A stretch of 64,000 bases of DNA from the NCBI GenBank assembly GCA_033558025.1, contig JAUCEF010000012.1, positions 3,410,001-3,474,000 on the forward strand, in the 5' to 3' direction. The number at the start of each line of letters is the position of its first letter. Position 1 is the stretch's first letter. The notes beneath the pieces are model-generated. The model made no database searches. It was not told the DNA's origin and saw only the letters and a program-made list of their open reading frames with translations. Source of the stretch: Phytophthora sp. 'mugwort'. Lineage: Eukaryota; Oomycota; Peronosporomycetes; Peronosporales; Peronosporaceae. This document shows positions 1 through 57,823 of this stretch, in pieces. The position numbers were made by a program, and so were the translations under genes.

Positions 1-3000
1 CCGAGACTCGCGCTTGTGGAGCTGCAGGTGCTCCGTGTAGGTCTTGAAGTTGCTGGGCTGCACCGAGCCCAGCGACCCGTACACGATGGCGGCGGTCTTA
101 ACCCGCCACCCCTTGAGCCGCAATTCGGCCACGATCGGTTGGTACTTGAGTGTCTTGTAGTCGTGGCTGAACTGCAGCGAGGAGTGGCGGGCCCCGGCCG
201 CCTGGTCTTCAAACGTGACCGCCAAGTCGGCGATCACCATCGTCTTGGCGGTCACGTTGCGCAGCACGATGTCCGGTCGCAGAGCTGCGCCTGTGTACTC
301 GGGCACCGTCTGGTTCAGGCGCAGCTCCGTGGTCGACTTGGCGCGGTCCAGTGCGCCGCGGATCTTGGACCCGATCTGCTCCAAGGCGTCGTCGTGACGC
401 TGCCTGATGGCGTCCATGTTGGACGCGCAGTGGTTAAGAACATGGGGCAGCGTCTCCGCCGAGGAGCAGGCCGGATCGCGGCAGTGGTGGTTGGCCCGAA
501 GGCGCCTGCGCTTGAGCACCGAGTTGGTGTCGACTTGGTTGAGGCGGGCCTGGATGCCGAACCTGTGCTCCGCATCCGACAGGCCCGCCCCCGTCGCCAC
601 GAACTTCGCGCCGAGGCCGCCGTGGACACGCACTGTCTTGCCTTGGTCCACCATCCCCTTCCACCGGGTCTGGTGGCGGATCTTCATGTGCAACTTCACG
701 TGCCGCAACACCGACTTGTGGTCGAGCCACTTGGTGTGGTGCGGCACGCGAAGGCCGAGCGTGTCCTGGCCGTCCGCGTCGTCGCGGTCCTCGAGGCGCA
801 GGTTGTTGTTCAGCAGGATGCGCTGGACATCCACCCACAGCGAGCCGATGTCACCGTTGCGGCGGAGCACCTCTGCGTGGGGCGAGGCGGCGAGCTCGGA
901 GTTCAAGAACAGGCGAGCGAGCTCGTCGTCACGCCCACGCCAGTGCTCCTCGTGTAGGCGGTAACGCTTGCGCGCTACCTGCCCCACCTGCGCCTTTGCC
1001 ACTGCGATGATCGCCGGGTCCTTGGAGTGCAGCATCTGCCACGCGTGAGCCACCTGCAGCGCTTGGTGCATCTCCACCAGCGACTGCAGGCCCAGCCCGC
1101 CACCTGATGTCGGCGTGTAGAAGAACTCGGTGGTGGCGGACTGGGGTAGACGCAGCAGATGCCGCAACCCACGGACCACGGCGCGGTCGAAGCCTTGTAG
1201 CTGGGACTGGAGCGGTCGCAGGTGGCGAAGCGCATACTCCACCTTGGGGTACACGTACGTCTTGAGAGCCTTCACCACCTGCCACGCCGCCAGTCCCGAC
1301 TGCATCAGCGCCACCGCCTCCCGCTTGATCTGCTGGATCTTGGGCTCAAGCTGGAGGCGGTGCCGCACGTGGTCGAAGCCATCGCCCACCCCCAGGTACC
1401 GATAGCTGTCTTGGAGGCTGAGGGTGACGATGATGTCGCCGTGGAGCTCCAGGCGCACGCTGTCGTCTCGGGTCGGGTTGCTGCGCGCGTTGGTTGTCAC
1501 CGCCAGGCTGGCACATTTGGCTGGGTTCGCGCGCAGCCCGGTCCACTTGAGGAAGCGAGCGACAACGCCGTGGCACTTCCGAATGCCGGCGGCGCTGTCG
1601 CTGAAGACCTTCAGGTCGTCGGCGTATGCCGTGGCGCAAGGTCGTACACCCTCGGCCAACGGCACGCCAACGTCCTCGAGCTCCTCCAGGCGGCGTAGGA
1701 GCGGCACGAGTGCTGCAATAAACAGGAGGGGGCTGAGTGGGCAGCCTTGGTAGACCCCCACCTCCTGGCGCACCGGGTCCGTCGCTCCTCCAGCGGCGTT
1801 CATCACCACGAAGGCCGAGTCTTGGTAAATGTCTTGGCAGCGCGAAGTGAAGCCAGTGTTGACACCGAGGTCGCGGAGCACCCGCCACATCAAGTCCTGT
1901 GGCAGCGACCCGAAGGCGTTCCGAAGGTCGTACCACACTTGGTACAGCCTTCGGTGGCGGCGGCGGGTCTGGTCCAGGAGCGTGGTTGCCACGAAGTTGT
2001 GTTCGTGGCAACCATTGAAGGCCCTGAACCCCTTCTGCGAGATCGGCAGCAGGTTGTTCCTCTCTAGCCAGCGCGACAGCCGACGTGCCAACAGCCCGCT
2101 GTACAGCTTGTAGATAGTGGGCTGAAGGCAGATCGGCCTCCAGTTGGCCGGCTGCATCGGGTCGCCCTTCTTGTGGATGAGACGTACGATGCCCACCTTC
2201 CACAAGGCGGGCACGCGCCGATGCAGCCAGCAAAACTGGTACGCGGCGTGAAGGAGGGGCACAAGTTGGGCAGCGAAGCGACGGTAGACGTCGTAGCCGA
2301 TACCGTCATGGCCAGGGCTGGATGTAACCGCCGCGCGCGTGAGCTGATCTTCCACTTCGTCCAGCGTGATCTCCTCCTCAAACGCGGTCGCCTCTGCTGT
2401 CGCCGCTTCAGAATTGGCCAGGGCATCCCGAAATTCCTCACCGCCATCACCATCATAGTTGAAGTTGGTCCGTGGCGTGTTGGTGCCAGTGAAGTAGCGG
2501 TGGAGTTCCTCGCGGTCGATCGGGCAGGACTCGGGGTGCTCCTCCATCGCCGCTTCCGCCGACGTTCGCTTCATGATCTTTTCCACACACTTGGCCTCGT
2601 CCTTGGCGAATTCCTGGCGGAGCCGCTGCAGAGCCAACGCTGAGCGGATGCGGCCCACTCGGCGGCGAGCGTTGCGGACGGCCTTCTGGTCATCGGGTGT
2701 CGCGCGTTGCACCGCCTCCATGTTGTCGAGGGCCTCGTCGAGGCGGTGCTCGCGCTGTTCCCGTGTGACTCGTGGTGGTCGCCGACGCCTCCATCGACGC
2801 TGTTGATCTTGTTGTGGTCGGGTCGGCTGCTGGTTCGGTGGTCCAGCTGTGTGGGTTGGATCCGGTCGAGGTGGCGACGACTGCGTCGCAAAAGGCTGCA
2901 GCAGCTCGCGGATGCGGTCGGGGATGGCGGCGATGTATCCTTCTCCCGTCGCCCAACTATCCGCATCCGTGATCCGGCTAGCCATGCTCGTGGTGAAGGT

Positions 3001-6000
3001 CTCCAGAGCCGCTGCTGCCGCGTCATGCTCATCGTCCGTCAGCTGCCGCAGTCGAAGTCGAGGTTGCCGCGTGGGGGCCGAGTTGGAGCCAATAGGCAGA
3101 GTGGGGAACACCTCGCCCCCATCACGCGCAGCAATTTCGGCTTCGACGTCCATGTCAGCGGCTTCTGCATTGACGGTGGCGTGGGCATCGGGAAGTCGTC
3201 TAGCCACTGGAGGTGCTGGGTTCGGCGTGGGCGCTGTCGTCGGGGCGAAGCATGTCGCCATGTCGCCGTCGTGGGGGCCACACTCCATGCGCGTCCGGCG
3301 TTGGTCCAGTGCCCTGTTGGCCAGGCGGTCAGCTTGGCCGTTGGCTTTGCGATCAATGTGCCGCAGCCTGTGCCAAGCAAGTCGTCGCAGCGCGTGTCGA
3401 ACTCGGTTCCGCAGCCCTCGGAGCCGTCCATTGGTGCACCCGAAGGAGCCCCGCACTTGCGCCAACACCAGGTTGCTGTCGCCCTCGATCAGCAGTCGGG
3501 AGGCGCCGTGGTGTAGCGCGCTCTGCACGCCGAGCAGCAGCGCCGTGTATTCGGCGGTGTTGTTCGTCTCGCTGCTTCTCGGCATGTAGTGCGAGCACGT
3601 CCACACCACAGCGCCACTTGGGTCGAAGAGTGCTGCACCGGCGCCGCCCGGGCCTGGGTTACGGCGGCAGGCGCCGTCGAAGCGCAGTACCCACGGCTGG
3701 AGGTCGTCCGAGCCGCTGTCAACGTCCATCGTGACCGTGACCGGAGTTTCAGCAGCTTCGGGTGGCACCGGTGCTGGCAGTGGTGCCACCTCTTGGAGCT
3801 GGCTTGGCGGTCTTGGTGCTCGGCGTGCCGCTCGGGTCAGTATCACTAGTGGGCGTGGGCCCCACCGAGTCGAAGTCCGGCTTGGGGCCCTCGCTGACTC
3901 GAGCGACATGCTGCTGGGAGGCGCTGTGGGCGAGGTGCCGGCGGTGGCCTCCAGTCTCGCGATGGCAGCAGCTCCGATTGCGCGTGGGCTTGGGCCCCAT
4001 CTCGTGGTTCGCTGAGTCGGAGCTGCTGTCGGTGTAGGTCGTCGAGCTGTCGGGGCAGCAGTCGTTTGCTCGCCGGTCACCAGCCGAGCGATGGCCGCTG
4101 CTCCGACGGCTCTGTGTCGTGGCCCCCATCGCGTGGGTCTGGCCGTAGGCTGGGCAGAAGAGGCGTCCGGCATGTCCTCGTCCGCTGCGAGCTCGAGCAT
4201 CAGGTCGTCCTCGGCGTCCTGCATCAGGGCGTCCAGGTCGACCGCAGGGCACGAGCTCGAGCTGTTGAGTCGGCGGCGCTTGCCACCGACACGAACTTCG
4301 GGGGGCGGGGACAGTGGGCACCGCACGGGGGGGACGTGTCGGTGCCCGTCTTGAACAGCAGCGGGAGGCATGGCGCTCTGTTGGGCGGCGGTGTCTGCCA
4401 CCGCGATGTCGCTTGATGCGGCTGTCGCAGTGACAGGCACCGCCGCGGCGAGGGGCTTGGTAGGTCTTGGGGCCTCCTCGCCGCGGAGGGAACGAGCACG
4501 AGCTGTAGTCGTCGTTGGGGAGTCGCGTGCAGCAGCTTCGGCCGCGTAGGCGCTCTGCGCGCAAGCCTGGGCATGCTTCGTCGCTGCTGCACGCGACTTG
4601 AAGCCGATGCCGCACGTGCACCCGCTGTGGAAGTGGTCCACGAAGCGGGTGCCACGATGCGCTGTGCGTCGATGGACGACGAGCGCCGCAAGATCGCGGA
4701 CGATGTGCGCGCACAACGCGCACTCGAAAGCAGCAGCGTTGTGCGCGTACACCGTCAGCACCGGGTCCTCGAGGCCGTTGGCCGGCCGAGGGTGGTAGAT
4801 CGGAGGTCCCGGTACTTGAGCGTCCTCGCCGCACTCGTCATCTTCGTTGTCGCCCTTGGTCTCCTCGTCGTAGCGTCCGTCGCTGCTGAACTCGTCGCCG
4901 TACTTGGGCGCCATATGCGCGCGAGCCGTAGGTGCTTGGTCTTGTCGTGGCTCGGCGCGCACGTGGCGCTCCACGGCAGCGCGGTCAGCAGGGGGTGCTG
5001 CATCGTCAGCTGCGGCTGCGGCTACTTGGGGGGAAGCAGCAGCCGCAGCTGGGGATGGGGGAGGGCTTGCCGGAGTGCTGGGCACGACCTGGCCGGGCAG
5101 CACGCAAGCCGCCCTGCCGGGTGGGGATCCAGCACTCGCGAGGGGTTGTGGGCCTTGGGCAGCGGCGGCGTGGACATCCAGCGCGTCCTCGCCGTCGCTG
5201 GAGATGTCGCTGGGGCCGGGGGAGCCGCCCAGGGCACGCGCCGTGGCGGCTGCAAGTGCCTGTCCCCGCGCTACCCGGTCGGGCAGCCTGCCTGCCGCCC
5301 TGCCGGGTGGGGACAGCAAAGCGCGGGGGGTCCTGGGCGGCGGAGAGGCGAAGATGGGCTGGGGGGCGTCGGCAGCGTCGGCTCGGGGCTCGTGGAGGCC
5401 GGTGGCAGCCTCCGGCGTGGACTTGGGGGCGACGAAGAGTGCTTGCCCCGGCACGACCCGATCGGACAGCCTGCCGGTCGCCCTGCCGGGTCGTGCCACA
5501 TCGCAGGGGGGAAACGAGGGGGGCCTGGCAGGCGGACGAGCGAGAGGAGCGTCTTGGCTCTCCGTAGGACCCGGGCCGGGGTCCAACGGAGGTCTTGGGG
5601 CTCCAGGAGAGCCAGCGGCAGCGCCGCCATCGTGGACGTCCATGGTGGCGGGCGAGGCGAGCGGCGAGAACCCCTGCGAGGCCTGAGCGGCCAGGGATTC
5701 TCCCATAGTGGGGGCAAGTGCTTGGGGCCCAGGCCCGTCCATGGGATGGCCCGGGGGCTCGAAGCTGGTCGCCGCCGTCGCGAAACGACGCGACGTTGAA
5801 GCCGCGAGGCTGGCTTCATCTTGGGCCCCAGAGGCCTCGGCCCGCGTCGCGGCTTGGCGTGCAATGGGCGCTGCGGGTCCTGAACCCGTGCCCGAAGTTG
5901 CAGCAGTTGAAACGCCGCCGGTGCCGAGCAGTGGCACCGCGCGTGGAGGGTCCGGCGGCTCGATTTCCGGCTCAGGCGAGCCCAAAACGGGGGCGGTAAT

Positions 6001-6183
6001 GTGTAACCGAACCCCTAGCTCGCCAGAGCCGGGTCTGGTGTACCCATCAGTCAGCCGCTCCGAACAGTCGCCGGATGACGCGCTGTAGAAAGACGCGTCA
6101 CTGGCGAGGCTGGAGTGACTGGCCGTGGAGCACTCGCTGTCCGTAGACGGGGTGCGCTCCCTGATTGGCCAAAACAGACGCAT
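1..6183 (-). CDS. Utopia polyprotein, copy 1 (C-terminus cut by window edge)
   Basis: The reading frame is open from the ATG at 6183 to the window start, about 2060 residues, and matches copy 2 codon for codon apart from one Val/Ala change. That change comes from base 1427, in the stretch just before the RT motif with YRYLG. Domain order is as in copy 2: N-terminal zinc finger, RNase H, reverse transcriptase with YADD, a CCHC knuckle and the start of the restriction-like endonuclease with its RPD motif near 270-280. The last 50-60 residues and the stop lie outside the window. No frameshift or stop is visible, so this copy may be as competent as copy 2. A TTG-initiated extension into the U2-like region is possible, but ATG is preferred. 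Confidence 0.85.
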   Translation of the reverse strand, partial: MRLFWPIRERTPSTDSECSTASHSSLASDASFYSASSGDCSERLTDGYTRPGSGELGVRLHITAPVLGSPEPEIEPPDPPRAVPLLGTGGVSTAATSGTGSGPAAPIARQAATRAEASGAQDEASLAASTSRRFATAATSFEPPGHPMDGPGPQALAPTMGESLAAQASQGFSPLASPATMDVHDGGAAAGSPGAPRPPLDPGPGPTESQDAPLARPPARPPSFPPCDVARPGRATGRLSDRVVPGQALFVAPKSTPEAATGLHEPRADAADAPQPIFASPPPRTPRALLSPPGRAAGRLPDRVARGQALAAATARALGGSPGPSDISSDGEDALDVHAAAAQGPQPLASAGSPPGRAACVLPGQVVPSTPASPPPSPAAAAASPQVAAAAADDAAPPADRAAVERHVRAEPRQDQAPTARAHMAPKYGDEFSSDGRYDEETKGDNEDDECGEDAQVPGPPIYHPRPANGLEDPVLTVYAHNAAAFECALCAHIVRDLAALVVHRRTAHRGTRFVDHFHSGCTCGIGFKSRAAATKHAQACAQSAYAAEAAARDSPTTTTARARSLRGEEAPRPTKPLAAAVPVTATAASSDIAVADTAAQQSAMPPAAVQDGHRHVPPVRCPLSPPPEVRVGGKRRRLNSSSSCPAVDLDALMQDAEDDLMLELAADEDMPDASSAQPTARPTRWGPRHRAVGAAAIARLVTGEQTTAAPTARRPTPTAAPTQRTTRWGPSPRAIGAAAIARLEATAGTSPTAPPSSMSLESARAPSRTSTRWGPRPLVILTRAARRAPRPPSQLQEVAPLPAPVPPEAAETPVTVTMDVDSGSDDLQPWVLRFDGACRRNPGPGGAGAALFDPSGAVVWTCSHYMPRSSETNNTAEYTALLLGVQSALHHGASRLLIEGDSNLVLAQVRGSFGCTNGRLRGLRNRVRHALRRLAWHRLRHIDRKANGQADRLANRALDQRRTRMECGPHDGDMATCFAPTTAPTPNPAPPVARRLPDAHATVNAEAADMDVEAEIAARDGGEVFPTLPIGSNSAPTRQPRLRLRQLTDDEHDAAAAALETFTTSMASRITDADSWATGEGYIAAIPDRIRELLQPFATQSSPPRPDPTHTAGPPNQQPTRPQQDQQRRWRRRRPPRVTREQREHRLDEALDNMEAVQRATPDDQKAVRNARRRVGRIRSALALQRLRQEFAKDEAKCVEKIMKRTSAEAAMEEHPESCPIDREELHRYFTGTNTPRTNFNYDGDGGEEFRDALANSEAATAEATAFEEEITLDEVEDQLTRAAVTSSPGHDGIGYDVYRRFAAQLVPLLHAAYQFCWLHRRVPALWKVGIVRLIHKKGDPMQPANWRPICLQPTIYKLYSGLLARRLSRWLERNNLLPISQKGFRAFNGCHEHNFVATTLLDQTRRRHRRLYQVWYDLRNAFGSLPQDLMWRVLRDLGVNTGFTSRCQDIYQDSAFVVMNAAGGATDPVRQEVGVYQGCPLSPLLFIAALVPLLRRLEELEDVGVPLAEGVRPCATAYADDLKVFSDSAAGIRKCHGVVARFLKWTGLRANPAKCASLAVTTNARSNPTRDDSVRLELHGDIIVTLSLQDSYRYLGVGDGFDHVRHRLQLEPKIQQIKREAVALMQSGLAAWQVVKALKTYVYPKVEYALRHLRPLQSQLQGFDRAVVRGLRHLLRLPQSATTEFFYTPTSGGGLGLQSLVEMHQALQVAHAWQMLHSKDPAIIAVAKAQVGQVARKRYRLHEEHWRGRDDELARLFLNSELAASPHAEVLRRNGDIGSLWVDVQRILLNNNLRLEDRDDADGQDTLGLRVPHHTKWLDHKSVLRHVKLHMKIRHQTRWKGMVDQGKTVRVHGGLGAKFVATGAGLSDAEHRFGIQARLNQVDTNSVLKRRRLRANHHCRDPACSSAETLPHVLNHCASNMDAIRQRHDDALEQIGSKIRGALDRAKSTTELRLNQTVPEYTGAALRPDIVLRNVTAKTMVIADLAVTFEDQAAGARHSSLQFSHDYKTLKYQPIVAELRLKGWRVKTAAIVYGSLGSVQPSNFKTYTEHLQLHKRESR

Positions 6184-6294
6184 CTGTGATTGGCCAAGGG
6201 GGACAAAAGGCAACCGATGGACAGCCGAGGAGAAGTGTAAAAAAGAAGCAAGCGTTGTAGTTGGCCTCGCGGGGGAAAGGTGAACGCCCCCGGA
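1..6294 (-). mobile_element. Utopia-type U2-targeted non-LTR retrotransposon, copy 1 (3' end outside window)
   Basis: Second copy of the element, downstream of copy 2 in the direction of transcription. Its 5' side abuts a truncated U2 sequence ending near 6295. The 5' boundary is uncertain by tens of bases because the U2 3' end is hard to place. The 3' end and any downstream U2 sequence lie left of position 1. Confidence 0.8.
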
Positions 6295-6406
6295 GACCGC
6301 CCCGACGTCGCCCAGCAAGCCGGCCGACGACGGGAGTTCCAAAAATGAGAGTGAAAAAGTTCGCTGACAAACAGCGAAAATCAGTTTTCACACTGATTAG
6401 AACAGA
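6295..6406 (-). pseudogene. 5'-truncated U2 snRNA fragment between the two Utopia copies
   Basis: Reading the minus strand from 6406, the sequence starts at U2 nt 39, directly after the place where the branch-point-pairing GTAGTA would lie. It continues through the stem IIa, stem IIb, Sm-like and stem III sequences, identical to 13132-13021. Upstream is the 3' end of copy 2 instead of U2 nt 1-38. This is the expected 3' flank of an insertion in U2. Stem I and the branch-point pairing sequence are missing, so no functional snRNA can come from it. The left limit is approximate. Confidence 0.75.
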
Positions 6407-9400
6407 ATATGTGTTCCTATTTACCAGTTAGTAACCTCTCCGTAACTAAAAATGTAAGCTAAACTATGCATGTCACTAAAGGGAGGGTGCTTGTATCTTC
6501 CTGGGTTCTTGAAGGGCGGTTCCCTACCTGGGTAGTGCCCTGTCGGTCGATGACCAGCTTATCGCCGTGCCTCTGCCTGCGATGTGCGCCGCGGGGTCCC
6601 CCCAGACCCGCGCGACGCTCGCGAGGAATGTCCGCTTGCTTGGCGCTCGCGGTGACGTCGGCAGTGCCAGCCCCAGATGCGGTGGCTGGCACGAATGCAA
6701 TGGCTCGACAGCTGGATGTCCAGCTGCCGAGACTCGCGCTTGTGGAGCTGCAGGTGCTCCGTGTAGGTCTTGAAGTTGCTGGGCTGCACCGAGCCCAGCG
6801 ACCCGTACACGATGGCGGCGGTCTTAACCCGCCACCCCTTGAGCCGCAATTCGGCCACGATCGGTTGGTACTTGAGTGTCTTGTAGTCGTGGCTGAACTG
6901 CAGCGAGGAGTGGCGGGCCCCGGCCGCCTGGTCTTCAAACGTGACCGCCAAGTCGGCGATCACCATCGTCTTGGCGGTCACGTTGCGCAGCACGATGTCC
7001 GGTCGCAGAGCTGCGCCTGTGTACTCGGGCACCGTCTGGTTCAGGCGCAGCTCCGTGGTCGACTTGGCGCGGTCCAGTGCGCCGCGGATCTTGGACCCGA
7101 TCTGCTCCAAGGCGTCGTCGTGACGCTGCCTGATGGCGTCCATGTTGGACGCGCAGTGGTTAAGAACATGGGGCAGCGTCTCCGCCGAGGAGCAGGCCGG
7201 ATCGCGGCAGTGGTGGTTGGCCCGAAGGCGCCTGCGCTTGAGCACCGAGTTGGTGTCGACTTGGTTGAGGCGGGCCTGGATGCCGAACCTGTGCTCCGCA
7301 TCCGACAGGCCCGCCCCCGTCGCCACGAACTTCGCGCCGAGGCCGCCGTGGACACGCACTGTCTTGCCTTGGTCCACCATCCCCTTCCACCGGGTCTGGT
7401 GGCGGATCTTCATGTGCAACTTCACGTGCCGCAACACCGACTTGTGGTCGAGCCACTTGGTGTGGTGCGGCACGCGAAGGCCGAGCGTGTCCTGGCCGTC
7501 CGCGTCGTCGCGGTCCTCGAGGCGCAGGTTGTTGTTCAGCAGGATGCGCTGGACATCCACCCACAGCGAGCCGATGTCACCGTTGCGGCGGAGCACCTCT
7601 GCGTGGGGCGAGGCGGCGAGCTCGGAGTTCAAGAACAGGCGAGCGAGCTCGTCGTCACGCCCACGCCAGTGCTCCTCGTGTAGGCGGTAACGCTTGCGCG
7701 CTACCTGCCCCACCTGCGCCTTTGCCACTGCGATGATCGCCGGGTCCTTGGAGTGCAGCATCTGCCACGCGTGAGCCACCTGCAGCGCTTGGTGCATCTC
7801 CACCAGCGACTGCAGGCCCAGCCCGCCACCTGATGTCGGCGTGTAGAAGAACTCGGTGGTGGCGGACTGGGGTAGACGCAGCAGATGCCGCAACCCACGG
7901 ACCACGGCGCGGTCGAAGCCTTGTAGCTGGGACTGGAGCGGTCGCAGGTGGCGAAGCGCATACTCCACCTTGGGGTACACGTACGTCTTGAGAGCCTTCA
8001 CCACCTGCCACGCCGCCAGTCCCGACTGCATCAGCGCCACCGCCTCCCGCTTGATCTGCTGGATCTTGGGCTCAAGCTGGAGGCGGTGCCGCACGTGGTC
8101 GAAGCCATCGCCCACCCCCAGGTACCGATAGCTGTCTTGGAGGCTGAGGGTGGCGATGATGTCGCCGTGGAGCTCCAGGCGCACGCTGTCGTCTCGGGTC
8201 GGGTTGCTGCGCGCGTTGGTTGTCACCGCCAGGCTGGCACATTTGGCTGGGTTCGCGCGCAGCCCGGTCCACTTGAGGAAGCGAGCGACAACGCCGTGGC
8301 ACTTCCGAATGCCGGCGGCGCTGTCGCTGAAGACCTTCAGGTCGTCGGCGTATGCCGTGGCGCAAGGTCGTACACCCTCGGCCAACGGCACGCCAACGTC
8401 CTCGAGCTCCTCCAGGCGGCGTAGGAGCGGCACGAGTGCTGCAATAAACAGGAGGGGGCTGAGTGGGCAGCCTTGGTAGACCCCCACCTCCTGGCGCACC
8501 GGGTCCGTCGCTCCTCCAGCGGCGTTCATCACCACGAAGGCCGAGTCTTGGTAAATGTCTTGGCAGCGCGAAGTGAAGCCAGTGTTGACACCGAGGTCGC
8601 GGAGCACCCGCCACATCAAGTCCTGTGGCAGCGACCCGAAGGCGTTCCGAAGGTCGTACCACACTTGGTACAGCCTTCGGTGGCGGCGGCGGGTCTGGTC
8701 CAGGAGCGTGGTTGCCACGAAGTTGTGTTCGTGGCAACCATTGAAGGCCCTGAACCCCTTCTGCGAGATCGGCAGCAGGTTGTTCCTCTCTAGCCAGCGC
8801 GACAGCCGACGTGCCAACAGCCCGCTGTACAGCTTGTAGATAGTGGGCTGAAGGCAGATCGGCCTCCAGTTGGCCGGCTGCATCGGGTCGCCCTTCTTGT
8901 GGATGAGACGTACGATGCCCACCTTCCACAAGGCGGGCACGCGCCGATGCAGCCAGCAAAACTGGTACGCGGCGTGAAGGAGGGGCACAAGTTGGGCAGC
9001 GAAGCGACGGTAGACGTCGTAGCCGATACCGTCATGGCCAGGGCTGGATGTAACCGCCGCGCGCGTGAGCTGATCTTCCACTTCGTCCAGCGTGATCTCC
9101 TCCTCAAACGCGGTCGCCTCTGCTGTCGCCGCTTCAGAATTGGCCAGGGCATCCCGAAATTCCTCACCGCCATCACCATCATAGTTGAAGTTGGTCCGTG
9201 GCGTGTTGGTGCCAGTGAAGTAGCGGTGGAGTTCCTCGCGGTCGATCGGGCAGGACTCGGGGTGCTCCTCCATCGCCGCTTCCGCCGACGTTCGCTTCAT
9301 GATCTTTTCCACACACTTGGCCTCGTCCTTGGCGAATTCCTGGCGGAGCCGCTGCAGAGCCAACGCTGAGCGGATGCGGCCCACTCGGCGGCGAGCGTTG

Positions 9401-12400
9401 CGGACGGCCTTCTGGTCATCGGGTGTCGCGCGTTGCACCGCCTCCATGTTGTCGAGGGCCTCGTCGAGGCGGTGCTCGCGCTGTTCCCGTGTGACTCGTG
9501 GTGGTCGCCGACGCCTCCATCGACGCTGTTGATCTTGTTGTGGTCGGGTCGGCTGCTGGTTCGGTGGTCCAGCTGTGTGGGTTGGATCCGGTCGAGGTGG
9601 CGACGACTGCGTCGCAAAAGGCTGCAGCAGCTCGCGGATGCGGTCGGGGATGGCGGCGATGTATCCTTCTCCCGTCGCCCAACTATCCGCATCCGTGATC
9701 CGGCTAGCCATGCTCGTGGTGAAGGTCTCCAGAGCCGCTGCTGCCGCGTCATGCTCATCGTCCGTCAGCTGCCGCAGTCGAAGTCGAGGTTGCCGCGTGG
9801 GGGCCGAGTTGGAGCCAATAGGCAGAGTGGGGAACACCTCGCCCCCATCACGCGCAGCAATTTCGGCTTCGACGTCCATGTCAGCGGCTTCTGCATTGAC
9901 GGTGGCGTGGGCATCGGGAAGTCGTCTAGCCACTGGAGGTGCTGGGTTCGGCGTGGGCGCTGTCGTCGGGGCGAAGCATGTCGCCATGTCGCCGTCGTGG
10001 GGGCCACACTCCATGCGCGTCCGGCGTTGGTCCAGTGCCCTGTTGGCCAGGCGGTCAGCTTGGCCGTTGGCTTTGCGATCAATGTGCCGCAGCCTGTGCC
10101 AAGCAAGTCGTCGCAGCGCGTGTCGAACTCGGTTCCGCAGCCCTCGGAGCCGTCCATTGGTGCACCCGAAGGAGCCCCGCACTTGCGCCAACACCAGGTT
10201 GCTGTCGCCCTCGATCAGCAGTCGGGAGGCGCCGTGGTGTAGCGCGCTCTGCACGCCGAGCAGCAGCGCCGTGTATTCGGCGGTGTTGTTCGTCTCGCTG
10301 CTTCTCGGCATGTAGTGCGAGCACGTCCACACCACAGCGCCACTTGGGTCGAAGAGTGCTGCACCGGCGCCGCCCGGGCCTGGGTTACGGCGGCAGGCGC
10401 CGTCGAAGCGCAGTACCCACGGCTGGAGGTCGTCCGAGCCGCTGTCAACGTCCATCGTGACCGTGACCGGAGTTTCAGCAGCTTCGGGTGGCACCGGTGC
10501 TGGCAGTGGTGCCACCTCTTGGAGCTGGCTTGGCGGTCTTGGTGCTCGGCGTGCCGCTCGGGTCAGTATCACTAGTGGGCGTGGGCCCCACCGAGTCGAA
10601 GTCCGGCTTGGGGCCCTCGCTGACTCGAGCGACATGCTGCTGGGAGGCGCTGTGGGCGAGGTGCCGGCGGTGGCCTCCAGTCTCGCGATGGCAGCAGCTC
10701 CGATTGCGCGTGGGCTTGGGCCCCATCTCGTGGTTCGCTGAGTCGGAGCTGCTGTCGGTGTAGGTCGTCGAGCTGTCGGGGCAGCAGTCGTTTGCTCGCC
10801 GGTCACCAGCCGAGCGATGGCCGCTGCTCCGACGGCTCTGTGTCGTGGCCCCCATCGCGTGGGTCTGGCCGTAGGCTGGGCAGAAGAGGCGTCCGGCATG
10901 TCCTCGTCCGCTGCGAGCTCGAGCATCAGGTCGTCCTCGGCGTCCTGCATCAGGGCGTCCAGGTCGACCGCAGGGCACGAGCTCGAGCTGTTGAGTCGGC
11001 GGCGCTTGCCACCGACACGAACTTCGGGGGGCGGGGACAGTGGGCACCGCACGGGGGGGACGTGTCGGTGCCCGTCTTGAACAGCAGCGGGAGGCATGGC
11101 GCTCTGTTGGGCGGCGGTGTCTGCCACCGCGATGTCGCTTGATGCGGCTGTCGCAGTGACAGGCACCGCCGCGGCGAGGGGCTTGGTAGGTCTTGGGGCC
11201 TCCTCGCCGCGGAGGGAACGAGCACGAGCTGTAGTCGTCGTTGGGGAGTCGCGTGCAGCAGCTTCGGCCGCGTAGGCGCTCTGCGCGCAAGCCTGGGCAT
11301 GCTTCGTCGCTGCTGCACGCGACTTGAAGCCGATGCCGCACGTGCACCCGCTGTGGAAGTGGTCCACGAAGCGGGTGCCACGATGCGCTGTGCGTCGATG
11401 GACGACGAGCGCCGCAAGATCGCGGACGATGTGCGCGCACAACGCGCACTCGAAAGCAGCAGCGTTGTGCGCGTACACCGTCAGCACCGGGTCCTCGAGG
11501 CCGTTGGCCGGCCGAGGGTGGTAGATCGGAGGTCCCGGTACTTGAGCGTCCTCGCCGCACTCGTCATCTTCGTTGTCGCCCTTGGTCTCCTCGTCGTAGC
11601 GTCCGTCGCTGCTGAACTCGTCGCCGTACTTGGGCGCCATATGCGCGCGAGCCGTAGGTGCTTGGTCTTGTCGTGGCTCGGCGCGCACGTGGCGCTCCAC
11701 GGCAGCGCGGTCAGCAGGGGGTGCTGCATCGTCAGCTGCGGCTGCGGCTACTTGGGGGGAAGCAGCAGCCGCAGCTGGGGATGGGGGAGGGCTTGCCGGA
11801 GTGCTGGGCACGACCTGGCCGGGCAGCACGCAAGCCGCCCTGCCGGGTGGGGATCCAGCACTCGCGAGGGGTTGTGGGCCTTGGGCAGCGGCGGCGTGGA
11901 CATCCAGCGCGTCCTCGCCGTCGCTGGAGATGTCGCTGGGGCCGGGGGAGCCGCCCAGGGCACGCGCCGTGGCGGCTGCAAGTGCCTGTCCCCGCGCTAC
12001 CCGGTCGGGCAGCCTGCCTGCCGCCCTGCCGGGTGGGGACAGCAAAGCGCGGGGGGTCCTGGGCGGCGGAGAGGCGAAGATGGGCTGGGGGGCGTCGGCA
12101 GCGTCGGCTCGGGGCTCGTGGAGGCCGGTGGCAGCCTCCGGCGTGGACTTGGGGGCGACGAAGAGTGCTTGCCCCGGCACGACCCGATCGGACAGCCTGC
12201 CGGTCGCCCTGCCGGGTCGTGCCACATCGCAGGGGGGAAACGAGGGGGGCCTGGCAGGCGGACGAGCGAGAGGAGCGTCTTGGCTCTCCGTAGGACCCGG
12301 GCCGGGGTCCAACGGAGGTCTTGGGGCTCCAGGAGAGCCAGCGGCAGCGCCGCCATCGTGGACGTCCATGGTGGCGGGCGAGGCGAGCGGCGAGAACCCC

Positions 12401-13020
12401 TGCGAGGCCTGAGCGGCCAGGGATTCTCCCATAGTGGGGGCAAGTGCTTGGGGCCCAGGCCCGTCCATGGGATGGCCCGGGGGCTCGAAGCTGGTCGCCG
12501 CCGTCGCGAAACGACGCGACGTTGAAGCCGCGAGGCTGGCTTCATCTTGGGCCCCAGAGGCCTCGGCCCGCGTCGCGGCTTGGCGTGCAATGGGCGCTGC
12601 GGGTCCTGAACCCGTGCCCGAAGTTGCAGCAGTTGAAACGCCGCCGGTGCCGAGCAGTGGCACCGCGCGTGGAGGGTCCGGCGGCTCGATTTCCGGCTCA
12701 GGCGAGCCCAAAACGGGGGCGGTAATGTGTAACCGAACCCCTAGCTCGCCAGAGCCGGGTCTGGTGTACCCATCAGTCAGCCGCTCCGAACAGTCGCCGG
12801 ATGACGCGCTGTAGAAAGACGCGTCACTGGCGAGGCTGGAGTGACTGGCCGTGGAGCACTCGCTGTCCGTAGACGGGGTGCGCTCCCTGATTGGCCAAAA
12901 CAGACGCATCTGTGATTGGCCAAGGGGGACAAAAGGCAACCGATGGACAGCCGAGGAGAAGTGTAAAAAAGAAGCAAGCGTTGTAGTTGGCCTCGCGGGG
13001 GAAAGGTGAACGCCCCCGGA
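6407..13020 (-). mobile_element. Utopia-type U2-targeted non-LTR retrotransposon, copy 2 (complete)
   Basis: A complete element of about 6.6 kb lies between two U2-derived sequences. Reading the minus strand, U2 sequence from nt 1 to about nt 150 leads into the element, one long ORF follows, then a 3' UTR of about 150 bases (6407-6558), then U2 sequence again from nt 39. No poly(A) tail is visible at the 3' junction. Utopia is the known non-LTR lineage specific for U2 snRNA genes, and its oomycete members carry an archaeal-type RNase H upstream of the RT, as here. The exact 5' end is an inference. Confidence 0.85.
6559..12909 (-). CDS. Utopia polyprotein: zinc fingers, RNase H, reverse transcriptase, restriction-like endonuclease
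   Basis: About 2116 residues from the ATG at 12909; the frame stays open upstream to a TTG at 13068. The N-terminal third is rich in Pro, Ala and Ser. A C2H2 finger (FECALC...HRRTAH) lies near residue 486. RNase H follows at about 830-960, with FDGACRRNPG, NNTAEY, EGDSN and a C-terminal QADRLAN motif. The reverse transcriptase spans about 1270-1600, with YDLRNAF, QGCPLSPLLF, AYADDL and YRYLGV. Near the C-terminus a knuckle of pattern C-x4-C-x7-H-x4-C precedes the restriction-like nuclease, with RPD near 1970 and a following ADLAV acid motif. This suits target-primed integration in the nucleus: the nuclease nicks U2 DNA and the RT copies element RNA from the nick. No disabling mutation is seen. 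Confidence 0.9.
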   Translation of the reverse strand: MRLFWPIRERTPSTDSECSTASHSSLASDASFYSASSGDCSERLTDGYTRPGSGELGVRLHITAPVLGSPEPEIEPPDPPRAVPLLGTGGVSTAATSGTGSGPAAPIARQAATRAEASGAQDEASLAASTSRRFATAATSFEPPGHPMDGPGPQALAPTMGESLAAQASQGFSPLASPATMDVHDGGAAAGSPGAPRPPLDPGPGPTESQDAPLARPPARPPSFPPCDVARPGRATGRLSDRVVPGQALFVAPKSTPEAATGLHEPRADAADAPQPIFASPPPRTPRALLSPPGRAAGRLPDRVARGQALAAATARALGGSPGPSDISSDGEDALDVHAAAAQGPQPLASAGSPPGRAACVLPGQVVPSTPASPPPSPAAAAASPQVAAAAADDAAPPADRAAVERHVRAEPRQDQAPTARAHMAPKYGDEFSSDGRYDEETKGDNEDDECGEDAQVPGPPIYHPRPANGLEDPVLTVYAHNAAAFECALCAHIVRDLAALVVHRRTAHRGTRFVDHFHSGCTCGIGFKSRAAATKHAQACAQSAYAAEAAARDSPTTTTARARSLRGEEAPRPTKPLAAAVPVTATAASSDIAVADTAAQQSAMPPAAVQDGHRHVPPVRCPLSPPPEVRVGGKRRRLNSSSSCPAVDLDALMQDAEDDLMLELAADEDMPDASSAQPTARPTRWGPRHRAVGAAAIARLVTGEQTTAAPTARRPTPTAAPTQRTTRWGPSPRAIGAAAIARLEATAGTSPTAPPSSMSLESARAPSRTSTRWGPRPLVILTRAARRAPRPPSQLQEVAPLPAPVPPEAAETPVTVTMDVDSGSDDLQPWVLRFDGACRRNPGPGGAGAALFDPSGAVVWTCSHYMPRSSETNNTAEYTALLLGVQSALHHGASRLLIEGDSNLVLAQVRGSFGCTNGRLRGLRNRVRHALRRLAWHRLRHIDRKANGQADRLANRALDQRRTRMECGPHDGDMATCFAPTTAPTPNPAPPVARRLPDAHATVNAEAADMDVEAEIAARDGGEVFPTLPIGSNSAPTRQPRLRLRQLTDDEHDAAAAALETFTTSMASRITDADSWATGEGYIAAIPDRIRELLQPFATQSSPPRPDPTHTAGPPNQQPTRPQQDQQRRWRRRRPPRVTREQREHRLDEALDNMEAVQRATPDDQKAVRNARRRVGRIRSALALQRLRQEFAKDEAKCVEKIMKRTSAEAAMEEHPESCPIDREELHRYFTGTNTPRTNFNYDGDGGEEFRDALANSEAATAEATAFEEEITLDEVEDQLTRAAVTSSPGHDGIGYDVYRRFAAQLVPLLHAAYQFCWLHRRVPALWKVGIVRLIHKKGDPMQPANWRPICLQPTIYKLYSGLLARRLSRWLERNNLLPISQKGFRAFNGCHEHNFVATTLLDQTRRRHRRLYQVWYDLRNAFGSLPQDLMWRVLRDLGVNTGFTSRCQDIYQDSAFVVMNAAGGATDPVRQEVGVYQGCPLSPLLFIAALVPLLRRLEELEDVGVPLAEGVRPCATAYADDLKVFSDSAAGIRKCHGVVARFLKWTGLRANPAKCASLAVTTNARSNPTRDDSVRLELHGDIIATLSLQDSYRYLGVGDGFDHVRHRLQLEPKIQQIKREAVALMQSGLAAWQVVKALKTYVYPKVEYALRHLRPLQSQLQGFDRAVVRGLRHLLRLPQSATTEFFYTPTSGGGLGLQSLVEMHQALQVAHAWQMLHSKDPAIIAVAKAQVGQVARKRYRLHEEHWRGRDDELARLFLNSELAASPHAEVLRRNGDIGSLWVDVQRILLNNNLRLEDRDDADGQDTLGLRVPHHTKWLDHKSVLRHVKLHMKIRHQTRWKGMVDQGKTVRVHGGLGAKFVATGAGLSDAEHRFGIQARLNQVDTNSVLKRRRLRANHHCRDPACSSAETLPHVLNHCASNMDAIRQRHDDALEQIGSKIRGALDRAKSTTELRLNQTVPEYTGAALRPDIVLRNVTAKTMVIADLAVTFEDQAAGARHSSLQFSHDYKTLKYQPIVAELRLKGWRVKTAAIVYGSLGSVQPSNFKTYTEHLQLHKRESRQLDIQLSSHCIRASHRIWGWHCRRHRERQASGHSSRASRGSGGTPRRTSQAEARR

Positions 13021-13170
13021 GACCGCCCCGACGTCGCCCAGCAAGCCGGCCGACGACGGGAGTTCCAAAAATGAGAGTGAAAAAGTTCGCTGACAAACAG
13101 CGAAAATCAGTTTTCACACTGATTAGAACAGATACTACACTTGATCTTAGCCATTAGGCCGAGAAGGTAT
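13021..13170 (-). ncRNA. U2 spliceosomal snRNA gene, 5' end to stem III (3' end unclear)
   Basis: The minus strand from 13170 shows the conserved U2 start, with CTTCTCGGCC, GGCTAAGATCAAGTG and the branch-point-pairing GTAGTA at nt 33-38. A stem IIa (ATCAGT/ACTGAT) and a stem IIb (CGCTG/CAGCG) follow. Next come an Sm-like ATTTTTGGA near nt 100 and a stem III with the CTTG tetraloop also present in human U2. A stem IV with the usual U2B''-binding loop was not recognised, so the 3' part may be diverged, absent, or replaced by element sequence. This is the only U2 in the window that keeps its 5' end. Whether it still makes functional U2 cannot be told from sequence alone. Confidence 0.85.
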
Positions 13171-13544
13171 GCTTGTATTTTGAAAAGGTCAGCTAGTGCT
13201 ATATGATTATTCTGCCCGCACGTACCGCTGGTAAATTTGTGTCTGTTCTGTAATGTTTAGTCGATTTTGGAATAGATTACTGCTCTTTAATACTAGTATG
13301 CTTGTAAATTGAATTTTGTTGCATAGACTTGCGAAACGGTTGTTGCCTAAACTAAGCAAATTAATCAAATTACTGGATGTAAAGGTAGGGCTGGTCGCGT
13401 GAATAATCAGTCATTCGTTATCGGTCAAGTATTTTTTTCTATACTGGTCATTAAGAGCACTGTTTAATTAAATAGCACTTACTTTTTCGCAACGAATTAT
13501 TGCATAGCCGGACATTTGAAAAAGTTGGTGGCAGTTTAGTCGAC
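13171..13544. other. Region upstream of the U2 gene, no gene seen
   Basis: AT-rich sequence between the U2 5' end and the piggyBac boundary. It should contain the U2 promoter, but I recognise no conserved snRNA promoter element in it and no coding sequence. Confidence 0.5.
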
Positions 13545-37089: not shown

Positions 37090-37907
37090 TACACTCCGCG
37101 ACAGATTAGATCACCCATCCACGTCGGTGGCTGTAACTCAGTTAATTTTTATAGCTAGAATCTGCTGTTTAGATATGCTGTTCGTGCTATTGCCCAGAAC
37201 CGGCTATACGTGATAACGAGCGCGATTGCGACGTACATGGGAGGGCCCCTATACAAGCGTGCGGTTTTAGCACCGCGACAGGTCACCCACCTCAGCTATT
37301 TAACTTTAAGTATAATCTAACCTAATGAATGTAGCAACTATTCACAATTGCTTCAATTCTAATGACGGATAATCTCGTCCGGCACGACGGGCCTTCGTAT
37401 GGATAGCAGCGACGGTCCGACAAGCTTGTTAACCCCAGACATACTTTATAACCACTAGACTTCATGTCACTACTACAAATTGCTACCATGGGGGCTCGCA
37501 GTGTGAGTCACACTTACCTGGATAAAAATCCACTCATATTGCTACTATATTCCATACAACAATGCCGAATTAGCAACACCTTTAAGGCGAGCTGTGCTAG
37601 TCCTCGGTCGTCATTGTCGGCTGTATATAACACTTAGAAATTGGAGCAATTGTGAATAGTTGCTACATTCATTAGGTTAGATTATACTTAAAGTTAAATA
37701 GCTGAGGTGGGTGACCTGTCGCGGTGCTAAAACCGCACGCTTGTATAGGGGCCCTCCCATGTACGTCGCAATCGCGCTCGTTATCACGTATAGCCGGTTC
37801 TGGGCAATAGCACGAACAGCATATCTAAACAGCAGATTCTAGCTATAAAAATTAACTGAGTTACAGCCACCGACGTGGATGGGTGATCTAATCTGTCGCG
37901 GAGTGTA
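37090..37907. mobile_element. Fold-back/MITE-like element with about 270-bp terminal inverted repeats
   Basis: The arm 37090 to about 37363 (starting TACACTCCGCGACAGATTAG) is the reverse complement of about 37634-37907, with no mismatch seen over roughly the outer 260 bases. The central 270 bases are non-coding. The TA at each outer end could be a TA target duplication. With no transposase inside, this is a non-autonomous element. Identical arms suggest recent insertion or arm conversion. Confidence 0.88.
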
Positions 37908-38244: not shown

Positions 38245-39594
38245 TTACGGCTTGGCCGTCACGGGGCACGGCGTTGTGGTCTCCGGTAGCGACGTCACGG
38301 AGTTGGGGCACGGAGTTGTCGAGGCCGGAGTAGTAGCCGGAGCCGTAGTCTCAGGCAGGGACGTCGCCGGGCAGGGCGTAGTCGGAGCCGGAGTAGTAAT
38401 AGCCGGAGCCGTAGTCTCAGGCAGAGACGTTACTGGGCAGGGCGTGGTCGTAGCAGGAGTAGTCGTCGCTGGTGCCGTTGTCTCAGGAAGCGAGGTCACG
38501 GGGCATGGGGTCGAGGTGGGGGCCTCCGTGTCGGGCAGTGAGGTCACCGGGCAAGGTGTGGCCGTCGGCGCCTCGGTTTCAGGGAGGGACGTCACAGGGC
38601 ATGGCGTGTCCGGAACCGACGTGATCGGGCACGGGGTGTCCGGCAGAGAAGTAACGGGGCATGGGGTGTCCGGCAGCGACGTCACAGGGCACGGGGTATC
38701 CGGCAGGGAAGTGACCGGGCACGGGGTGTCTGGCAGCGACGTGACTGGGCAGGGGGTGTCCGGCAGGGAAGTGACCGGGCACGGGGTGTCCGGCAGCGAC
38801 GTGACTGGGCAGGGGGTGTCCGGCAGCGACGTGACTGGGCAGGGGGTGTCCGGCAGGGAAGTGACTGGGCATGGGGTATCCGGCAGCGACGTCACAGGGC
38901 AGGGGGTGTCCGGCAGGGAAGTGACTGGGCAGGGGGTGTCCGGCAGCGACGTGACTGGGCAGGGGGTGTCCGGCAGGGAAGTGACTGGGCATGGGGTATC
39001 CGGCAGCGACGTCACAGGGCAGGGGGTGTCCGGCAGGGAAGTGACTGGGCATGGGGTATCCGGCAGCGACGTGACTGGGCAGGGGGTGTCCGGCAGGGAA
39101 GTGACCGGGCACGGGGTGTCCGGCAGCGACGTGACTGGGCAGGGGGTGTCCGGCAGCGACGTGACTGGGCAGGGGGTGTCCGGCAGCGACGTGACTGGGC
39201 AGGGGGTGTCCGGCAGCGACGTCACGGGGCAGGGTGTGGCGGTGTCAGGCAGCGAGGTAACGGGGCATGGTGTTCTGGACGTACCGCAACCGACGGACGG
39301 GAGCACGCAGCCCCAGGTGTCGCCATTAACGATAGCGCACTCGGCGTCCTCGGGTGCCACGCACGTGCTGCCGTTCCAAGACGGCAGGTAGTCGTAGCAG
39401 TCGGCGATGGCCACGTCGCCTTTGAGCGGGCAGGCCGTGCCGGCCGGCGACTCACCAGCGCCAGAGCACATGGCGCCGCGCGAGGCGGGCGAGTTGTAGG
39501 TGGCGTCGCGACACAGTGAAACGGGCAGGTCATCGAGCGCCGCTGCGGCCGACACGGCCATGGCGGCGCATATGAGCGTAGCGAATATTTTCAT
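38245..39594 (-). CDS. Secreted Cys-rich protein with tandem [10 protein letters not shown] decapeptide repeats
   Basis: A 449-residue frame. Residues 1-20 ([20 protein letters not shown]) form a clear signal peptide. Residues about 21-103 are a Cys-rich domain with eight or so cysteines ([48 protein letters not shown]). About twenty near-identical decapeptides [10 protein letters not shown] follow, then a Thr/Ala/Pro-rich tail with looser repeats. Thr/Pro/Ser richness suggests heavy O-glycosylation and a cell-wall or extracellular mucin-like role; the repeat cysteines could cross-link. No catalytic domain or GPI signal was identified. I do not recognise a named family. The repeat is a 30-bp DNA minisatellite, so alleles may differ in length. 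It lies between the fold-back element and decayed sequence. Confidence 0.85.
38630..39235 (-). repeat. 30-bp coding minisatellite
   Basis: About twenty 30-bp units encode the decapeptide repeats. Units fall into a few sequence variants that alternate in blocks, which suggests expansion of higher-order groups. The period is a multiple of three and the units lack stops in some other frames, which creates long spurious open frames on both strands. Confidence 0.93.
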
Positions 39595-47945: not shown

Positions 47946-48230
47946 TGTAACGGGGTAAGAGTTACCATTACTAGCTTACACTATTAGTAGCAGAGGAAGC
48001 TTCGAATTAACAGACCCAAGTGTCACTTTAGTGGCAAATTTAACTCTGTTTTATTTTTAGGTCTGAGGAAAAGTTTTCCGGACTTCTGTGAGTCACTCGA
48101 ATGTGGATCGACTCCTGATTGGTCCATATGGGTCTGGCTCCCCATAATCAACCAATAGGAGGATAGCTACCTACTAATGTAATATGTACTAGAAACCTAC
48201 TTACTTATGTAACGGACACAACCCGTTACA
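47946..48230 (-). repeat. 3' LTR of the Gypsy element
   Basis: 285 bases beginning TGTAACGGGGTAAGAG and ending CCCGTTACA, so the ends form a short inverted repeat. It matches 57542-57823. Confidence 0.96.
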
Positions 48231-57541: not shown

Positions 57542-57823
57542 TGTAACGGGGTAAGAGTTACCGTTACTAGCTTACACTATTAGTAGCAGAGGAAGTTCTA
57601 ATTAACAAACCCAAGTGTCACTTTAGTGGCAAAATTAACTGTTTTATTTTTAAGTCCGAGGAAAAGTTTCCCGGCCTTCTGTGAGCCACTCGAATGTGGA
57701 TCGACTCTTAATTGGTCCATATGGGTCTGGCTCCCCATAATCAACCAATAGGAGGATAGCTACCTACTAATGTAATATGTACTAGAAACCTACTTACTTA
57801 TGTAACGGACACAGCCCGTTACA
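57542..57823 (-). repeat. 5' LTR of the Gypsy element
   Basis: 282 bases with the same ends as the 3' LTR (TGTAACGGGG...CCCGTTACA). It differs at about fifteen positions, including short indels. Confidence 0.96.

Follow-up and report, generated by a model that had tools for sequence, protein, structure and literature searches.

In this Phytophthora genome, the 3′ part of the U2 snRNA gene behaves as the 5′ end of the retrotransposon that inserts into that gene. The window, a stretch of 64,000 nucleotides (C12:3410001-3474000), contains an intact U2 gene at the head of a tandem array of Utopia units. Each unit begins with U2 nt 39-190, and U2 nt 1-38 are present once, at the head. Where each new unit joins the array, the U2 gene would be complete again. 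The most probable explanation is that read-through RNA from the U2 promoter serves as template for target-primed reverse transcription at nt 38/39, which would insert U2(39-190) and Utopia together and restore both the gene and the landing site. The assembly comprises 86.26 Mb in 154 contigs, and our survey was confined to its own sequence.

The U2 gene of the window is continuous. U2 nt 1-190 run on the minus strand from 13170 to 12981, and this stretch matches all 192 positions of the Rfam model RF00004 at 144.9 bits (cut-off 46 bits). A second RF00004 match, from 6462 to 6255 on the same strand, reached 76 bits, and the real U2 sequence in it is nt 39-190 only. At this junction, base 6407 is the Utopia 3′ end of unit 1 and base 6406 is U2 nt 39 of unit 2. 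GTAGTA makes up U2 nt 33-38, and TCTGTTC (nt 39 onward) directly follows the Utopia 3′ end ...ACACATAT. The initial annotation had placed the resumption of U2 at nt 39, right after GTAGTA, and both the Rfam match and the junction sequence bear this out. It had also described U2 sequence shared by both sides of the element. The duplication and the unbroken upstream copy stand, but the extent had to be revised: the shared stretch spans nt 39-190; it goes past stem III and nt 150, takes in stem IV and ends with the Rfam family model. The downstream copy is the start of the next Utopia unit and not a remnant of a split host gene. Across the whole unit, unit 2 differs from unit 1 by one substitution (window 1427). 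The features are collected in Table 1.

Table 1. Features of the U2-Utopia array in the window
Feature	Position	Strand	Remarks
Putative promoter (PSE-like) motif GTACGTGCGG	13216..13225	-	Starts 55 nt upstream of U2 nt 1 of the C12 head
U2 snRNA nt 1-38	13133..13170	-	Sole U2 part outside the repeated unit; Rfam match
U2 snRNA nt 39-190, 5′ end of Utopia unit 1	12981..13132	-	Forms an intact U2 gene with nt 1-38
Leader, 71 nt, from U2 3′ end to Utopia start codon	12910..12980	-	Precedes the ATG at 12909
Utopia ORF, 2116 aa from ATG (2169 aa from first TTG)	6559..12909	-	RNase H, R2-type reverse transcriptase, C-terminal region
Utopia 3′ UTR, ending ACACATAT, without poly(A)	6407..6558	-	Sequence reading; genome-wide 3′ end matches
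Utopia unit 1, 6726 bp, head of C12 array	6407..13132	-	Comparison of C12 units 1-12
U2 nt 39-190 of unit 2, without nt 1-38	6255..6406	-	Directly after the 3′ end of unit 1
Utopia unit 2 body	1..6254	-	Near-identical to unit 1; extends beyond the window

Judged by its sequence, the element is Utopia, a U2-specific non-LTR retrotransposon of the NeSL clade; the insertion site, the R2-type reverse transcriptase and the order of the RNase H domain all fit. RNase H (RVT_3) lies at residues 888-1011 of the protein (P0001), N-terminal to the reverse transcriptase (RVT_1, residues 1389-1652, E 1.7e-24), which is the oomycete Utopia layout. The closest named Utopia proteins came from Phytophthora and other oomycetes. 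Identity was 86% to a Phytophthora protein (P0003) and 34% to an Acanthamoeba protein (P0052), and the top solved relatives in the PDB were the R2 proteins 9nl3 and 9dou. The ATG at 12909 was placed by the N-terminus MR[LF][FYW]WP, which is common to 7 of the 27 other homologues longer than 1700 aa; the remaining 20 start elsewhere. Pfam gave no match in the ORF to a restriction-like endonuclease or to zinc fingers. Cys/His and RPD...D motifs were seen by eye only, and the C-terminal region contains a candidate endonuclease. At the U2/Utopia boundary (12500-13400), Rfam returned no HDV-like ribozyme at E values up to 5. U2-encoded residues in the homologues were considered as a trace of the same arrangement in other species and were discarded, as only scattered 5-residue matches occurred, in 12 of 80 homologues.

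The window has further repeats outside the array. A perfect inverted repeat with 269-nt arms, 280 nt apart, occupies 37090-37907, and a 449-aa ORF on the minus strand (38245-39594) lies over a long array of 30-nt repeats. Direct repeats of ~280 bp at 47946-48230 and 57542-57823, 9.6 kb apart and 88-98% alike by segment, are possibly the LTRs of an LTR retrotransposon.

Genome-wide searches gave the same junction throughout. With all match counts for U2, leaders, 3′ ends, U1 and U4 read as lower bounds, a 190-nt U2 query hit 39 places. Of these, 2 span nt 1-190, 35 span nt 39-190, and the remaining 2 are fragments on C16. In an Rfam U2 search, which scored 46 of 1555 first-look candidates, 2 matches reached 144.9 bits, 35 scored 66-77 bits and 2 fell below the cut-off. 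With a tolerance of up to 3 mismatches, a 32-letter pattern from the U2 5′ region matched only at the two heads and at a C16 fragment. The two intact U2 genes are on different contigs (C12 and C13), both match the full covariance model (positions 1-192), and both head Utopia arrays. Both heads contradict a simple cut of U2 at nt 38/39 that duplicates nothing. The U2 query, the Rfam search and the 5′ pattern found no Utopia-free intact U2 gene in the assembly. For scale, comparable searches found 2 U1 genes and 1 U4 gene.

The ends of the element were equally constant. The Utopia 3′ end matched 37 times; 35 of these matches were full or nearly full, and 35/35 adjoined U2 nt 39, the other 2 being 44-nt partials. 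The Utopia 5′ leader also matched 37 times, in every case directly after U2 39-190 (35 internal units and 2 heads), with small length changes inside the leader in the oldest copies. Conversely, Utopia follows every U2 39-190 found, except at a diverged relic on C16. Found 35 times in the genome, the nt 38/39 junction is not a product of chance. The junctions are not all independent, and the counts are weaker than they look, since unequal exchange can multiply units. Because all 35 of these 3′ ends and all 37 leaders border U2 in this way, and because both U2 genes are array heads, U2 39-190 behaves as the element's own 5′ end. The earlier description of a U2 gene invaded by Utopia thus located the insertion correctly at nt 38/39, but it was too simple for a genome in which no Utopia-free intact U2 gene was found. 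Its expectation of duplicated U2 sequence upstream of other insertions agrees with every leader found genome-wide.

These junctions also bear on the model of Kojima and Jurka. For Phytophthora, these authors expected a stub of U2 nt 1-38 upstream of Utopia and found intact U2 genes there instead (PMC4640811). They proposed that insertion deletes the U2 5′ fragment and that the upstream intact U2 is a neighbouring gene of a U2 array, with caveats of their own that leave room for duplication (PMC4640811). Here, however, U2 and Utopia are contiguous, with nt 190 joined to the leader in 37/37 cases and no spacer, and a neighbouring intact gene free of Utopia was not found in the assembly. We therefore rejected the idea that the U2 5′ part was lost next to a separate intact U2 gene, and we regard the deletion model as very improbable for these arrays.

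Two diverged U2 pieces lie on C16. At C16:1162475-1162605 (L060), ~15 nt of the Utopia 3′ end are followed by U2 39-181 at 88% identity, and in the surrounding stretch (C16:1161001-1163500) the sequence after U2 39-181 has no match to the Utopia leader. This relic may be a truncated insertion, and it may preserve the old host flank of a U2 gene. The second piece, at C16:1324362-1324400 (L059, C16:1322001-1325000), is a U2 5′ fragment of ~nt 1-35 with the direct repeat CTATACCGGCATGAG on both sides; by eye, this resembles the insertion of a piece of U2 RNA that duplicated 15 bp of its target. Old Utopia copies were also tried as a source of the host U2 3′ flank. Four stretches, 25 kb in all (L066-L069), were examined past the C12 tail and past two outlying copies; they contained no U2 match and degenerate Utopia relics only, so this source was set aside.

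The two arrays differ in make-up. The C12 head lies at 3423170 on the minus strand and the C13 head at 2042948 on the plus strand, and BLAST found no match between the upstream 1500 bp at the C13 head and the upstream 10 kb at the C12 head. On C12, the array comprises 12 complete units, each 6719-6726 bp long. By spacing, the C13 array has 21 complete units: six of 2953 bp, nine of 6726 bp and six of 6534-6725 bp. None of the 33 complete units (12 + 21) is 5′-truncated, as judged by junction spacing. The 2953-bp unit keeps both ends and has element nt 614-4386 deleted (numbered from U2 nt 1). All six such units are at the C13 head (C13:2042986-2060703) and are near-identical, with one differing site in the stretches compared; these internally deleted units may have been moved by full-length copies. 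The U2 and all the Utopia sequence retained by the short C13 head unit are 100% identical to the C12 head unit. Near-identical units of this kind could reflect a collapsed or chimeric repeat in the assembly, and copy number may be off. But the arrays are on two contigs with different flanks, the units carry ordered, unit-specific variants, and the same junction occurs in older diverged copies at C13:1526833 and C12:3723062, which leaves an assembly artefact highly implausible.

The order of units was examined in the C12 array, where all twelve were compared in full with the head unit as reference. From unit 1 to unit 12, substitutions relative to the head numbered 0, 1, 1, 1, 2, 10, 10, 11, 17, 15, 14 and 15. 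The variants are nested: 2098 is found in units 3-12, 941 in units 5-12, and 373, 2294, 3413 and 4027 in units 6-12, while a one-base deletion marks units 8-12. Among 23 informative variants, 21 occur in contiguous blocks and 15 in blocks that reach the tail, with 8 of these 15 confined to units 11 and 12. When unit order was shuffled 20000 times, no shuffle equalled either count, the maxima being 20 contiguous and 13 tail-reaching; the shuffles test order, not direction, and direction comes from four polarised sites. Six substitutions are common to at least 7 tailward units, and 4 of them could be polarised with other Utopia copies (L061-L064 and L068). At all four, the other copies carry the tail state, so the head is the young end of the array. 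By this comparison of sequences, the C12 array grew at its U2 head, where the derived state is found. The C13 array changes likewise at site 373, with T in the 3 tailmost and A in the 19 headward of 22 unit starts. Middle stretches of C13 (2 of 21 units) have T at 2098 and the head state at 2294, 3413 and 4027, like C12 units 3-5.

Part of the pattern fits a handful of original insertions that were multiplied by unequal crossing-over or gene conversion, an account that is compatible with read-through as the origin of the unit. C12 units 11 and 12 have 8 substitutions in common, several of them derived or otherwise present only in the next tail copy (L061), and look like a local duplication, which runs counter to pure one-by-one growth. 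The six near-identical short units at the C13 head and the near-identity of the C12 and C13 arrays point the same way. Nesting has exceptions: in C12, 2 of 23 variants do not form contiguous blocks, and in C13, units 2134497 and 2147765 share variants that are absent from 2141040 between them. Exchange alone, however, would not be expected to nest the variants towards one end and to place the derived state at the head that bears the putative promoter, or to change site 373 alike in both arrays. Nor does it explain why, at two loci whose upstream flanks are unrelated, each unit begins with U2 39-190. As the main mode of growth we consider exchange possible but doubtful.

We also asked whether the carried U2 diverges more slowly than the sequence after it, and the copies disagreed. 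In substitutions, carried U2 (nt 39-186) versus the next 432 nt, L061 (2 vs 2) and L062 (1 vs 2) gave no difference, and L064 gave 4/148 vs 33/432 (P 0.03); L063 (1 vs 37) was left out because a deletion spoils the alignment.

A promoter-like motif lies upstream of the U2 heads. GTACGTACGG stands at -55 of the C13 head, and one U1 gene has GTACGTGTGG at -56; at U4 the resemblance is looser, with 3 mismatches. Within the 64-kb window, the pattern GTACGT[AG][CT]GG occurs once when both strands are searched. The motif may be a PSE-like element. Internal units have the Utopia 3′ UTR at the motif position, so only the head unit is placed for transcription from the U2 promoter. The two U1 snRNA genes lie in opposite orientation, ~2 kb apart, at C3:884790-886998 (L081/L082), and the motif belongs to the first of them.

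In the cycle that we infer, the head unit would be transcribed from the U2 promoter to give a U2-Utopia read-through RNA, and the Utopia protein would nick the bottom strand at U2 nt 38/39. Target-primed reverse transcription would then run from the Utopia 3′ end through U2, and the cDNA end complementary to U2 1-38 would anneal to the upstream target, forming a seamless 5′ joint. This would restore the U2 gene and the landing site, the older head would lose its promoter, and the next insertion would stack on top. Insertions that fail to rebuild U2 would be eliminated by selection. U2 sequence could first have been acquired when the reverse transcriptase jumped from its template onto U2 snRNA, and template jumping has reportedly been seen with the R2 reverse transcriptase.

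That the host gene is spared and its landing site restored for repeated insertion had been suggested at the outset, and the genome-wide junction counts and the ordered array support it well. Two routes had been offered, a read-through transcript and a target duplication of more than 100 bp. The first fits better because the nt 190/leader joint is the same in 37/37 cases, no complete unit is truncated, and the promoter-like motif occurs in the window at the head only. The second route would be a very long target-site duplication, of ~152 bp or more, which would still restore the U2 gene and for which the same anatomy is expected as for carried U2. It has a reported precedent in R9 of rotifer rDNA (an element also named in PMC3636483), in R1 arrays new copies enter a 14-bp duplication (PMC2718515), and the C16:1162475 relic could be one 5′-truncated insertion. 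But the U2/Utopia boundary would then be every 5′ junction, and such junctions, often variable in R1 and R2 according to the accessible literature, are constant here. Copies with 5′ truncations would be harmless, yet the complete units include none, and the duplication would need to end at the U2 gene's own 3′ end. On these grounds the long duplication ranks lower, and we judge it unlikely.

If the read-through mechanism operates, the host U2 snRNA would be co-encoded by a retrotransposon. The locus would supply the promoter and 38 nt, Utopia would supply 152 nt, both intact U2 genes found would be chimeras of this kind, and one transcript would be both snRNA precursor and retrotransposon template. 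We lean slightly towards this reading. It would let Utopia home without end into an essential gene present in two copies, and U2 would stay intact. If true, an essential spliceosomal RNA would have its sequence copied by error-prone retrotransposon replication, and the array would be an ordered record of the Utopia master copy. The account also offers an answer to a published puzzle. The persistence of several U2-specific families with so few U2 genes was called a surprise and left unexplained in the accessible parts of PMC4640811. If U2 and the landing site are rebuilt at every insertion, the number of targets would set no limit and the cost to the host would be small.

Known elements share parts of this design. 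R9 of bdelloid rotifer rDNA reportedly makes an exceptionally long target duplication of 126 bp. Unlike the arrays described here, R9 sits in rDNA, and we know of no report that it rebuilds a gene. In the R1 tandem arrays of Drosophila 28S genes, an older copy has restored target sequence at its 5′ end, which new copies enter, and precise 5′ joints were inferred to come from the upstream 28S sequence that melanogaster-type R1 transcripts carry (PMC2718515). The R1 copies are separated by a 14-bp 28S duplication (PMC2718515), whereas in the Utopia arrays the gene's entire 3′ part is rebuilt. R2 is co-transcribed with rRNA, and target arms on its RNA aid integration (PMC12203849).

Kojima and Jurka (2015) named Utopia, fixed the nt 39 boundary and reported families in Phytophthora and Nasonia (PMC4640811). 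Our element agrees with those of Phytophthora and Nasonia in the U2 nt 38/39 site, the strict U2 specificity and the downstream U2 sequence from nt 39, with oomycete Utopia in having RNase H before the reverse transcriptase, with Phytophthora Utopia in the intact U2 upstream, and with Nasonia Utopia in tandem copies, which are occasional there (PMC4640811). It differs in that the U2 39-end is not described as part of the element in the accessible text of that account. Intact U2 genes were put at 7-10 per Phytophthora species (PMC4640811). Here, 2 were found, both of them array heads. As far as the open-licence literature is accessible, no paper was found on the U2 39-end as part of an element or on arrays that regenerate U2. 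A parallel comes from integrative elements that restore tRNA genes. These carry the 3′ end of the RNA gene that they enter, and they use DNA integrases. Their insertion restores the entered RNA gene, and Utopia would be the RNA-mediated counterpart.
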